From IMG/VR virus record IMGVR_UViG_3300036944_000524, positions 1-47,976 of that record: 47,976 bases of DNA; one strand, given 5' to 3'. A program made the translations under genes and the position numbers. The stretch is from a virus. This document shows, in pieces, positions 632 through 30,778 of the stretch (its first letter is position 1; each line of letters starts with the position of its first letter). The notes beneath the pieces are model-generated. The model saw nothing but the letters and a program-made list of their open reading frames with translations, searched no databases and was not told the DNA's origin.

Positions 632-985
632 TCAGAATTGCACGTTGTTTTGCGCGCCGGTCGTGTCGATTATCTCAACCTGCCCGCGTAATTCGCGCCC
701 TTGGAATGTCACAATTGTACACCGGGCGGAAACAACATCGGGAACCGTTAATGCTGCCGCTTCGATTTTCGATTTAATAAATGACGTGTTAAGCGGCTGG
801 CCTAATATGTCGCTGAAATACGGGACGCCTTGCGTGGTGTCATACCAGGCCTCACCAGCGAAAGTGCGGCAAGCGCTGGCCACGTCTTGGGCCACTGCAT
901 ACGGGGCGGTTGCCATGGCAATATTGCCCGAGATATCGAGAACCAAGTCCCAGATGTCCTGCGAAAGTAAAAGTGTATCAGCCAT
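632..985 (-). CDS. Small baseplate wedge protein (gp25/GpW-like candidate)
   Basis: A 117-residue protein between the spike gene and the J-like wedge gene. Proteins of this size here are usually gp25/W-type wedge components that nucleate the sheath on the baseplate. Visible features are an acidic N-terminus (MADTLLLSQDIWDL) and a glycine-containing centre (GVPYFSDILGQP) resembling the conserved patch of that family. Its ATG overlaps the spike gene's stop (TAATG), so translation is probably coupled. The gp25 assignment rests on position, size and this patch. Confidence 0.65.
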   Translation of the reverse strand: MADTLLLSQDIWDLVLDISGNIAMATAPYAVAQDVASACRTFAGEAWYDTTQGVPYFSDILGQPLNTSFIKSKIEAAALTVPDVVSARCTIVTFQGRELRGQVEIIDTTGAQNNVQF

Positions 986-5994: not shown

Positions 5995-6347
5995 GCTGCT
6001 TTTTGCAGACGGAACAGGGTCAGCACTTCCTCAATATCGCCAGGGAAAATGGCGCGTACAGTGCCATTCTCTGCAACGACCTGAACGCACGCCAGCAAGT
6101 CATCCATCAGCGGTTCAGCTACGTGGTGCGGCATCTTGCCAACGGCCTTGAAGCCCATCATCGCCAGCCCAGCCATCCCCGATGCAAGCACTTCGTCGCC
6201 CACATCAATGCCGGTGTTGGCCATGGCGAACAGCAGGCGCGATGCCCACTTGTAGCCGCCAACTGCTGACATTTCCGTGATAAGGAATTTCTTGCCCTTG
6301 TCGCGGCCCTCGGCGGTTTCGGTGTACGTGGATTCGATGCGCGCCAT
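5913..6347 (-). CDS. Tail assembly chaperone, zero-frame product
   Basis: A 144-residue protein between the tail tube and tape measure genes, the position of the G-type tail assembly chaperone that coats the tape measure before tube polymerisation. The body is helical (YKWASRLLFAMANTG, EPLMDDLLACVQVV). The slippery site lies at codons 125-126, so most ribosomes would finish this short form and a minority would make the longer fusion. Confidence 0.75.
   Translation of the reverse strand: MARIESTYTETAEGRDKGKKFLITEMSAVGGYKWASRLLFAMANTGIDVGDEVLASGMAGLAMMGFKAVGKMPHHVAEPLMDDLLACVQVVAENGTVRAIFPGDIEEVLTLFRLQKAAWDVHISPFMIGVRSISESAADQKSTA
5970..5976 (-). promoter_or_regulatory. Programmed -1 frameshift site CCCTTTT
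   Basis: Read on the minus strand the heptamer is C CCT TTT in the zero frame, a canonical X XXY YYZ slippery site. After slippage both tRNAs re-pair on CCC TTT, and reading continues with TAT into the downstream frame, which stays open to 5749. It sits inside the 82-base overlap between the two chaperone frames. Confidence 0.75.
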
Positions 6348-22659: not shown

Positions 22660-22736
22660 TGGAGCCGCGTGAGTAATTTGAACACTCGACCAGAAGCTTA
22701 CAGGGTTACTGCTCTACCAGACTGAGCTAACACAGC
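22660..22736 (-). tRNA. tRNA-Thr (anticodon TGT)
   Basis: A full 77-base cloverleaf with encoded CCA. Acceptor stem: 22730-22736 with 22664-22670 (7 pairs, two of them G-T). D-arm: GCTC/GAGC. Anticodon loop CCTGTAA with TGT at 22702-22700. T-arm: GAGTG/TACTC with loop TTCAAAT. The anticodon stem (GTAAC/GCTTC) has two mismatches, T-T and A-C, which is odd and could lower function. It may help translate ACA codons. Confidence 0.8.
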
Positions 22737-29104: not shown

Positions 29105-29193
29105 TCAACCCTAAAAAATACGTGATGACCGCCATTAGCGTGCTTTTTGGCGCGGTACTCCTGCGCCAGCGTGTAAAGGGAAAGGTTGCTCAT
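29101..29193 (-). pseudogene. Truncated Gp157 N-terminus (30-codon remnant)
   Basis: A short frame starting at the SSB stop (TAATG) encodes [19 protein letters not shown] and then about 11 unrelated residues before a stop. The first 14 residues match the start of the full Gp157 protein (MSSLSLYEIASEYR) closely, yet the codons differ, so it is an older, GC-richer copy. It looks like the original 5' end of Gp157, cut off by the HNH insertion. It could still serve translational coupling. Confidence 0.7.
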
Positions 29194-29522
29194 TATTTGC
29201 CCTCCGACTTGTCGCCCAGCATCTGCATGTTCTCTGCAACGATATCAGTGGCGTAATGGTCAACGCCATCTTTCTGATATTTGCGCGTTTGCAAGCGTCC
29301 CTCAATGTAGACGGTCGAACCTTTTTTCAGGTATTGACCGGCAATCTCAGCTAATCGGCCAAACAGGCTTACCCTATGCCATTCTGTCACGGCCTCCTTG
29401 TCCTTTGGCTTGTAGCTGGTGGCCACAGCAATATTAGCGATAGCATCACCGCTAGGCATGTAGCGCATTTCTGGATCACGGCCCAAATTGCCGACGATAA
29501 TTACCTTGTTGACGGATGCCAT
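29193..29522 (-). CDS. ssb: Single-stranded DNA-binding protein
   Basis: A 109-residue SSB with the OB-fold pattern: [19 protein letters not shown] at the start, [21 protein letters not shown] in the middle, [15 protein letters not shown] then [12 protein letters not shown]. It stops after KSEGK, so the flexible tail and the acidic tip used to recruit partners in bacterial SSBs are missing. It likely covers DNA during replication and supports ERF annealing. Confidence 0.92.
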
Positions 29523-29524
29523 GA

Positions 29525-30112
29525 TTAGTTTGCCTTTTTCAGTTCGCCCATACGAGCATTAAAGTGTCCGGTGTAAAGCCGCTTTTGATCCGCAGCAAGT
29601 GAGTTCATCACCTTAGTGAGAGCCGGAATGTCGCCAGCAGCATTGAACTGTGCCAAGATCACCGCGTCGGGTTCACTGGGCACCGCTTCCTGTCGTGGCG
29701 CTGGCGCTGATGCCTGCGGCTTTGCCGATGCCGACTTATGGCTTGATGCAGCGTTGCCGTCGTCGTCCTCTGGCGCAATGCCACATGCGGCTTGCAGTGA
29801 GTAACGGCGGGCATAGGTGAGCGCCGAACCGTAGCCTTGCGGGTCTTGCTTGCTGGCTGGCACATGCAGCTTGCCGCCGCGCATAGTCTCGCCGGACTCA
29901 TGAATAAACACAGTCTCGACCGTAACGCCACGGTCATCCATGAACGTTTCCTGCATCAGCGCAATGCCGTTGTTCAGCAATGCTTCGTCTACAGCATCCA
30001 GGCAAGCGCCAAGATCGGCATACTTTGATTTGAACGCGGGGTTTGTGCGGTCTTTCAGCGCTGGGCCGAACTCCTTTTTTGCCTTAATAAAGGCGGGGGC
30101 GATCTTTTCCAT
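29525..30112 (-). CDS. erf: ERF-family single-strand annealing recombinase
   Basis: A 195-residue protein with the ERF family core: [18 protein letters not shown] and [19 protein letters not shown] (residues 8-45), [26 protein letters not shown] (about 98-123). A proline/alanine linker ([15 protein letters not shown]) leads to a small C-terminal helical domain. ERF proteins anneal complementary strands. The ATG has AAGGAA upstream and the gene is followed by SSB. Confidence 0.9.
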
Positions 30113-30140: not shown

Positions 30141-30296
30141 TTAGAACGGCAGTTCCTTCAGATTCCGTTCGATGTATTCCAAATGCTCCTTCTTCTGCTG
30201 CTCAGTCTCAAAGTGCTGGAAACGCTCGGTCAGCACTGGCCTGATCTTGTCCAGATAAGCATTGCGCTTTGCTGGCTTTTTATGTTGCTCTGTCAT
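30141..30296 (-). CDS. Small basic helical protein upstream of ERF
   Basis: A 51-residue protein (starts MTEQHKKPAKRNAYLDKIRP, ends LKELPF) with a strong AAGGAGGA ribosome site 5 bases before its ATG. Two-thirds is one long helix (RFQHFETEQQKKEHLEYIERN). It is the first gene after the structured leader region, so any control in that leader acts on it first. Function unknown. Confidence 0.75.
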   Translation of the reverse strand: MTEQHKKPAKRNAYLDKIRPVLTERFQHFETEQQKKEHLEYIERNLKELPF

Positions 30297-30610
30297 TACT
30301 TCCTCCTTAGTTGTATTTGATTTCCAATAACTTCCCCAAGGGTGATAGCCCGTAGTTTCCTACGCAGTCTTATCTCCTTTGATCCAATCCATCATCTAGT
30401 GATAGACCCAATCCACCGAAGCGGTATGCATTCCGTCCTATTGGTGTTGTCTCACCACTTGCCACCAATAGTTGTTTCAAGTCCCTGCATCAAGGCTTGC
30501 TAGGCGCATCCCAGGGTGCCGGGTGCCTGTCTTTGCGTGGTGTAGCTCGATGTCAAAGCTATTCAAGGTAACGCTTCCTTCCACTCGCGAATGGTGTCGA
30601 GCCAGAACGC
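30297..30610 (-). other. Gene-free leader with several hairpins
   Basis: About 314 bases without a convincing gene. On the minus strand it has an exact 9-bp inverted repeat (CTATTGGTG at 30438-30446, CACCAATAG at 30463-30471), a CGTAG-GAAA-CTACG tetraloop hairpin (30351-30364), a short ACCG/CGGT hairpin (30415-30425) and two CCAATCCA copies (30384-30391 and 30408-30415). Short frames occur, such as a 35-codon one from a GTG, but lack ribosome sites. It may be a structured 5' leader of the ERF operon or hold a replication element. Confidence 0.55.
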
Positions 30611-30743
30611 AAAAAAGCCGTTAAGTCTGGATTCTGGTCGCAGAGAGCAAGCATCGAACAAACGCAACAATGCTTACCCAACAGAACCCAAGCTTAACGG
30701 CTCGGTAAGCGTTTGTTTAACTACTCCTGGCTGCGACACCATT
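30611..30743 (-). ncRNA. Candidate structured RNA or attenuator ending in an intrinsic terminator
   Basis: A promoter (30750-30778) would start a minus-strand RNA near 30743. A 21-base imperfect inverted repeat (30682-30702 with 30616-30636, 18 of 21 match) ends in TTTTT at 30615-30611, an intrinsic terminator with a large loop. A competing fold pairs 30731-30737 with 30637-30643 (7 bp) and 30704-30717 with 30657-30678 (9 plus 5 bp, 8-base bulge), which traps the first arm of the terminator. The two folds exclude each other or form a pseudoknot. Either a 130-base small RNA or a switchable leader fits. Confidence 0.55.
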
Positions 30744-30749
30744 AAGCAA

Positions 30750-30778
30750 ATCATACCGCAACACGCAAGCGAACTCAA
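30750..30778 (-). promoter_or_regulatory. Promoter for the structured RNA / ERF operon
   Basis: On the minus strand: -35 TTGAGT (30773-30778), 17-base spacer, -10 TATGAT (30750-30755). Four and five matches to the sigma70 consensus. It overlaps no gene and lies just after the 93-codon gene start region ends at 30791. Confidence 0.6.

Follow-up and report, generated by a model that had tools for sequence, protein, structure and literature searches.

The window analysed here, the whole 47,976 nucleotides of the IMG/VR virus record IMGVR_UViG_3300036944_000524, belongs to a phage with a contractile tail. The region of interest is on its minus strand (Table 1). On the right of this region is an O/DnaB replication module, and on the left are genes for Erf, SSB and a Gam-like protein; a phage tRNA-Thr (TGT) gene lies elsewhere in the window, at 22660–22736 (minus strand). 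The original prediction placed here a promoter, an inverted repeat closing on a T-run at 30611, and a further group of pairings that encloses the 5′ arm of the repeat. Each of these is present, but the feature does not end at 30611 as had been supposed, since the conserved RNA runs on to ~30326. The whole RNA is probably ~410 nt long, from 30743 to ~30326 on the minus strand, and would lead into the ERF/SSB genes.

Table 1. Features of the element and the adjacent genes in the window
Feature	Position	Strand	Details
Promoter	30750–30778	−	−35 TTGAGT 30778–30773, 17-nt spacer, −10 TATGAT 30755–30750
Segment a, GTCGCAG	30731–30737	−	Near RNA 5′ end; 5′ strand of antiterminator and part of P1
Segment b, AACAAACGCTTACC	30704–30717	−	Extends antiterminator; partner b′ 30678–30657
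T5′	30682–30702	−	5′ arm of terminator stem (approximate); enclosed by antiterminator loop
Segment b′, GGTAAGC..GCGTTTGTT	30657–30678	−	Upper part, 3′ strand of antiterminator
Segment a′, CTGCGAC	30637–30643	−	Abuts 3′ terminator arm; partner a 30737–30731
T3′ and T-run	30611–30636	−	3′ arm of terminator stem 30636–30616 (approximate); six-T run 30616–30611
P1 3′ strand, CTGGCTCGACACCATT	30590–30605	−	Partner 30743–30727, once terminator passed
Core 5′ domain including P2	30502–30590	−	Alignments; covariation of P2 and two further helices
P2		−	AGGC 30528–30525 / GCCT 30505–30502; inner CCC 30523–30521 / GGG 30512–30510
Pseudoknotted 3′ core	30326–30501	−	57-sequence alignment A2, pair counts, covariance model R1
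P3	30499–30496 / 30481–30478	−	
PK1	30490–30486 / 30430–30426	−	ATGCA / TGCAT
P4	30471–30463 / 30446–30438	−	
Hairpin	30364–30351	−	CGTAG[GAAA]CTACG
PK2	30456–30453 / 30344–30341	−	GGUG / CACC
Core 3′ motif, CACCCUUGGGG		−	Part of 30326–30501
51-aa ORF	30141–30296	−	First gene behind the element
Erf-like ssDNA annealing protein	29525–30112	−	
SSB	29193–29522		Follows the Erf-like gene

Transcription probably starts at ~30743 on the minus strand, the position at which homology to a second phage, L082, also begins in alignment. The promoter match by itself says little, as the window holds two consensus promoter matches against 4.5 expected by shuffling; support comes from its recurrence at the same distance in relatives. 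When 46 contigs carrying the element (members) were aligned on segment a, TTGnnn and TAnnnT-like boxes appeared at a near-constant distance, with the −10 box mostly 17–20 nt 5′ of segment a.

For the 140-nt RNA the calculated folding energy is −55.6 kcal/mol (z = −4.6 against shuffled sequence), and adding the following 20 nt lowers it to −76.4 kcal/mol (z = −8.0, 0 of 200 shuffles as good). This is because the RNA 5′ end pairs with the segment just behind the T-run in a 16-bp outer stem, P1, formed by AATGGTGTCG(C)AGCCAG and CTGGCTCGACACCATT. Segment a, which P1 partly occupies, is also the 7-bp complement of a′. In folds of the growing chain, calculated as minimum-energy structures without kinetics or pseudoknots, the a:a′ plus b:b′ fold is the minimum (−38 kcal/mol) as long as the chain has its 3′ end between 30636 and 30624; the terminator then displaces the antiterminator (−39.4 kcal/mol at 30620, −51.7 kcal/mol at 30612), and P1 plus terminator (−76 kcal/mol) is the minimum after 30588 has been made. 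The alternative folds that had been proposed from inspection are thus recovered by calculation, antiterminator first and terminator later. Judged by loop lengths and energies, the two should largely exclude each other, and in members with a short linker the geometry suggests that antiterminator and full terminator cannot easily coexist.

Relatives were found from one exact 21-mer match in IMG/VR, which gave L082. This phage matches the window at 79% DNA identity over 30743–30335, a stretch reaching ~280 bases beyond the T-run. Further contigs were fetched with two short motifs taken from the common stretch past the terminator, and at least 120 stretches with a third pattern; after filtering there were at least 135 matches, at least 108 with distinct cores, a few false ones having been dropped. 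More than 100 related copies lie in uncultured IMG/VR phage contigs. The element is also carried by 5 of 80 ERF-neighbourhood loci fetched without the RNA motif, one of which (L043) sits on a contig also fetched by motif (as L142). When 32 viral records were searched over their full length, each proved to contain one copy, in one case split by an insert.

Beyond IMG/VR, BLAST searches with five members and two consensus pieces gave no credible match in the INPHARED phages (~50,700 GenBank records), and BLAST against the 72,556 plasmids of PLSDB likewise gave none. Among 84,980 species genomes, one exact pattern had no match and the other a single match, in Hydrogenophaga sp. NFH-34, and a covariance-model search of 401 genomes from its family and 398 from its phylum returned only the Hydrogenophaga genome itself. 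This copy (L234, ~1140–1594) is the sole one seen in a bacterial genome and has a perfect 15-bp a:a′ helix; its host is cultured, and so usable for experiments. The window’s neighbouring 93-aa protein, used as a query, found no relatives. The comparison with known RNA families that had been called for was made with Rfam 15, in which the window and 17 relatives matched no model at curated thresholds; permissive E-values, applied to the window region and L202, returned nothing meaningful. ARAGORN called no tRNA or tmRNA at the element.

It is in the core, rather than the terminator, that sequence is conserved. In alignment A2 (57 sequences), P3, P4 and the long-range pseudoknots have 88.9% of cells paired, with 317 two-sided pair changes compared with 88 in shuffles, and a covariation score of 0.58 compared with 0.16 for shuffled sequences and 0.06–0.12 with the partners slid. 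PK1, which is 97% paired, shows two-sided changes in each of its six pairs; its commonest form is CAGCGA/TCGCTG, and the window has ATGCA/TGCAT. PK2 is unproven, being nearly invariant. P2, P5 and the 5′-domain helices also covary, and isolated position pairs, which look like tertiary contacts, co-vary with 96–100% pairing, in each case by our own score on a MAFFT alignment uncorrected for phylogeny. The near-invariance of GGUGA and CACCCUUGG arises partly by construction, from fetching by exact motif and a filter requiring GGTGA; the covarying helices fall outside the fetching motifs. This pattern of compensatory change argues that the core is a real RNA structure.

A conserved peptide encoded here would have counted against a regulatory RNA, but the overlapping ORFs are not kept across members, and the coding explanation was rejected for this reason and because the 5′ module lacks sequence conservation between some close relatives. 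At the 3′ end of the element, the consensus CACCCUUGGGGAACCUAUG includes an AUG, followed in many members by a codon-like NCU-AAA, so that some link to the ribosome is conceivable. The AUG opens a longer ORF in L130, L116, L218 and L199, and one of few codons in most members; CUAUG was considered as a start codon and rejected as a general rule, as the frames behind it are mostly very short.

Upstream of the core, ~60 non-redundant modules of largely unrelated sequence share one order of parts: promoter, a, T5′, a′, T3′, U-run. The energy of the terminator stem lies between −28 and −45 kcal/mol in nearly every one of 66 non-redundant modules, and the T-run (U4–8) is found in 88 of the 98 members with enough upstream sequence; L225, L151, L173 and L108 still have a strong stem, followed by a shorter T-run that lacks four consecutive T, and in L086, L090 and L149 stem and T-run are placed farther upstream. 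No module was recognised in three of the 98 (L140, L187 and L112). The distance from U-run to core motif is mostly 220–280 nt, so that module and core co-occur at near-constant spacing.

Covariation in relatives, the evidence that the original prediction had looked for, extends in the module to a and a′, which form at least 7 bp in 75% of 61 well-parsed non-redundant modules, compared with 9% when partners are swapped. The median length is exactly 7 bp, and segment a, usually GUNNNNN, is hypervariable among relatives with its complementarity to a′ maintained; the gap from a′ to T3′ is 0–3 nt in most members. The 20 nt after T5′, taken as a control segment, match over at least 7 bp as well, in 39% compared with 8%, probably because b′ partly falls there, and a:a′ is the strongest pairing, though not the sole one. 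Pairings comparable to b:b′ occur in L082, L210, L224, L226 and L105. P1 reaches at least 8 bp in 28% of modules and in 6% of the control, and is thus a feature of a subset only. For a:a′ and P1, energies of free duplexes computed across long stretches differed little from the control, and a contiguous-helix test was used instead. Of 46 members selected for a good a:a′ match, 41 have a:a′ in their nascent minimum-energy fold, and once the U-run is reached every one of the 46 has the terminator as its minimum. The anatomy of a switch is well supported by these results, and the 5′ module appears to be selected for its fold.

The module also changes beneath a constant core. L082 and L111 share 278 of 291 core bases, whereas their modules, of the same architecture, are 58% alike, compared with 60% for shuffled sequence. 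Among 138 pairs with cores 90–100% identical, 20% have modules less than 75% identical, indicating that the module is replaced or fast-changing. Near-identical cores with unrelated 5′ modules, sometimes of a different module type, are likewise seen in L199/L212, L161/L164 and L131/L217, and such pairs look like the products of cassette exchange.

The genes behind the element differ between members, from Sak4-like in L082 to Erf and SSB in the window, and are mainly those of replication and recombination: replication initiation, RecE/YqaJ-like exonuclease, ParB-like, helicase, primase, Sak4, Erf and RecT, with small terminase and structural genes in addition. The proposal that the block gates the phage recombination genes therefore fits the window, where ERF/SSB lie behind it, but is too narrow for the relatives, which head replication, exonuclease, helicase/ParB, terminase and structural operons; comparison of neighbourhoods found no gene family common to members. 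The next gene is co-oriented in 48 of 57 cases, and the one before the element in 37 of 58. Behind the core, 1 of 60 members has a terminator-like site (1.1 expected), and without a terminator after the core the element reads as an operon leader. In some members a Cro-like gene stands directly before it. In L105, a tRNA-Arg gene (843–918, minus strand) ends just upstream of the promoter.

The explanation we prefer, and to which we would give roughly an even chance, is that the element is the leader RNA of phage early operons, a new structured class of ~400 nt, whose 5′ module attenuates transcription of the early genes. Transcription would start near 30743, and the emerging 5′ end (a and b) would pair with b′ and a′, looping out the 5′ terminator arm and so forming an antiterminator before the terminator is complete. 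If the antiterminator holds, polymerase would cross the U-run, make the core and enter the ERF/SSB genes; otherwise the terminator stem would form and an RNA of ~130 nt be released. In the window, the 5′ end may then re-pair behind the terminator (30605–30590) as P1, freeing a′ of segment a and fixing the read-through RNA in its final fold. The core, presumed to act in cis as part of the leader, might work on polymerase, on RNA stability, or as a sensor, to name examples.

Regulation by the module is suggested by its folds, and would require that the terminator works in the host and that the balance of folds is controlled, both of which seem plausible. As the terminator is usually the more stable fold, the antiterminator may merely delay it, and the members whose stems lack a four-T run suggest that termination is perhaps not the point everywhere.

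In its 5′ module this leader probably works like a known kind of device. Attenuators and riboswitches share with it a promoter-proximal leader, a competing antiterminator and intrinsic terminator, and a terminator that is completed last, and the computed folds and their conservation give the two mutually exclusive leader folds, one an intrinsic terminator, by which an attenuator is recognised. The attenuator reading first put forward captures this pair of covarying folds between promoter and recombination genes, but is not the whole story. The antiterminator, in contrast to those of known systems, uses the hypervariable 5′ end of the RNA, with no known ligand or leader peptide, and the sequence-conserved domain is 3′ of the terminator instead of 5′. 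A riboswitch of the usual order, with its aptamer 5′ of or overlapping the expression platform, is contradicted by this arrangement, there being no ligand-binding domain upstream of the terminator; nor do the riboswitch classes in Rfam match the window, 17 relatives or L202. Lying downstream of the terminator, the core cannot steer the polymerase that is making it, unlike in known riboswitches.

The absence of one shared downstream gene family would also fit an independent RNA, and the element could be a stand-alone ornate non-coding RNA of the GOLLD/ROOL kind, trans-acting or structural, cut from a longer transcript and using its early-gene position merely for convenience. We regard this, the main rival reading, as possible, though rather unlikely. 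The single copy in each of the 32 records would suit it, as would a core conserved far beyond the needs of a simple attenuator, with its long-range pseudoknot and tertiary-like covarying positions. GOLLD and ROOL are likewise large, multi-pseudoknot, phage-borne RNAs of unknown function with occasional large loop inserts, and GOLLD has a conserved 3′ and a less conserved 5′ region (PMC12286853). Hairpin or tRNA-like inserts are tolerated in L140, L187 and L149, as inserts are in the linkers of GOLLD, which are reported to contain tRNAs sometimes (PMC12286853). L140 and L187 carry long hairpin inserts with similar ends (GTGTTTTGTGgt...accACAAAGCAT) in loops of the 5′ domain and P5, twice in L140, possibly a small mobile element. 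The insert in L149, between T-run and core and ~180–330 bases 5′ of the core start at 6030, is tRNA-like (AGCAGGGC...CGGGTTCGATTCCCGTCCTGCT), and ARAGORN calls no tRNA in it. Against an independent RNA, the core has no terminator behind it, co-orientation is commoner for the next gene than for the preceding one, and a terminator module would have no obvious use within such an RNA. The element is also shorter than GOLLD and ROOL, has a promoter and terminator module at its 5′ side, and lies near a tRNA gene in only a few members; the GOLLD and ROOL covariance models in Rfam 15 match neither the window, 17 relatives nor L202. Assembly into a homo-oligomeric RNA cage is a further mark of these two families.

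Processive antitermination in cis, in which nascent RNA binds polymerase so that downstream terminators of the early operon are ignored, is improbable. A folded nascent transcript near the promoter of a phage early operon, needing polymerase alone, is known from the put RNA of HK022 (PMC9378689), and the position of the element by a promoter at the operon head, in some members right after the Cro-like gene, is what such a role would predict. Yet put is an RNA of ~70 nt with two stem-loops, present in copies behind both PL and PR (PMC9378689), and by this description the element is set apart: it has ~400 nt, one copy per record, a pseudoknotted core, and a strong terminator 5′ of the core, ahead of any core-based effect. 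Size, copy number and internal terminator together make a put-like role less likely. An RNA of the put kind would also be expected to bind the zinc-binding domain of polymerase β′.

It is also improbable that the element is a phage-specific RNA recognition device. In such a device the 7-nt tags a/a′ of the fast-changing 5′ module would serve each phage as its own key, and either the short RNA released at the terminator or the unpaired P1 3′ strand of finished RNAs would act in trans on nascent leaders of like type. A phage already resident could in this way shut off early genes for recombination and replication in an incoming phage with a matching key, by analogy with the antisense RNAs that determine plasmid incompatibility; the large core would then provide a stable RNA body for the key.

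That the module makes a regulatory RNA of ~130 nt with its own promoter and terminator, the core being a separate element, is very unlikely: promoter, stem and U-run would mark its bounds, and the terminator and fold anatomy first described were to that extent right, but the conserved element extends ~280 nt past the terminator, module and core keep a near-constant spacing and are connected by P1 in a subset, and a module sequence so often unconserved between close relatives would be odd for a base-pairing sRNA with fixed targets.

For the early-operon leader, we are aware of no RNA in which an attenuator precedes an ornate core at the start of an early operon. No description of the element was found in the open-access papers searched, and papers beyond these could contain one. 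Since no Rfam model matches and no RNA of the same layout is known, a structured RNA of ~400 nt that occurs in more than 100 uncultured phage contigs, and was found neither in Rfam nor in ~50,700 phage records of GenBank, would constitute a new class of RNA. The turnover of the module beneath a near-identical core suggests diversifying selection on an RNA switch, which itself needs explaining, and the element offers a directly testable model of RNA-based control of early genes in phages.
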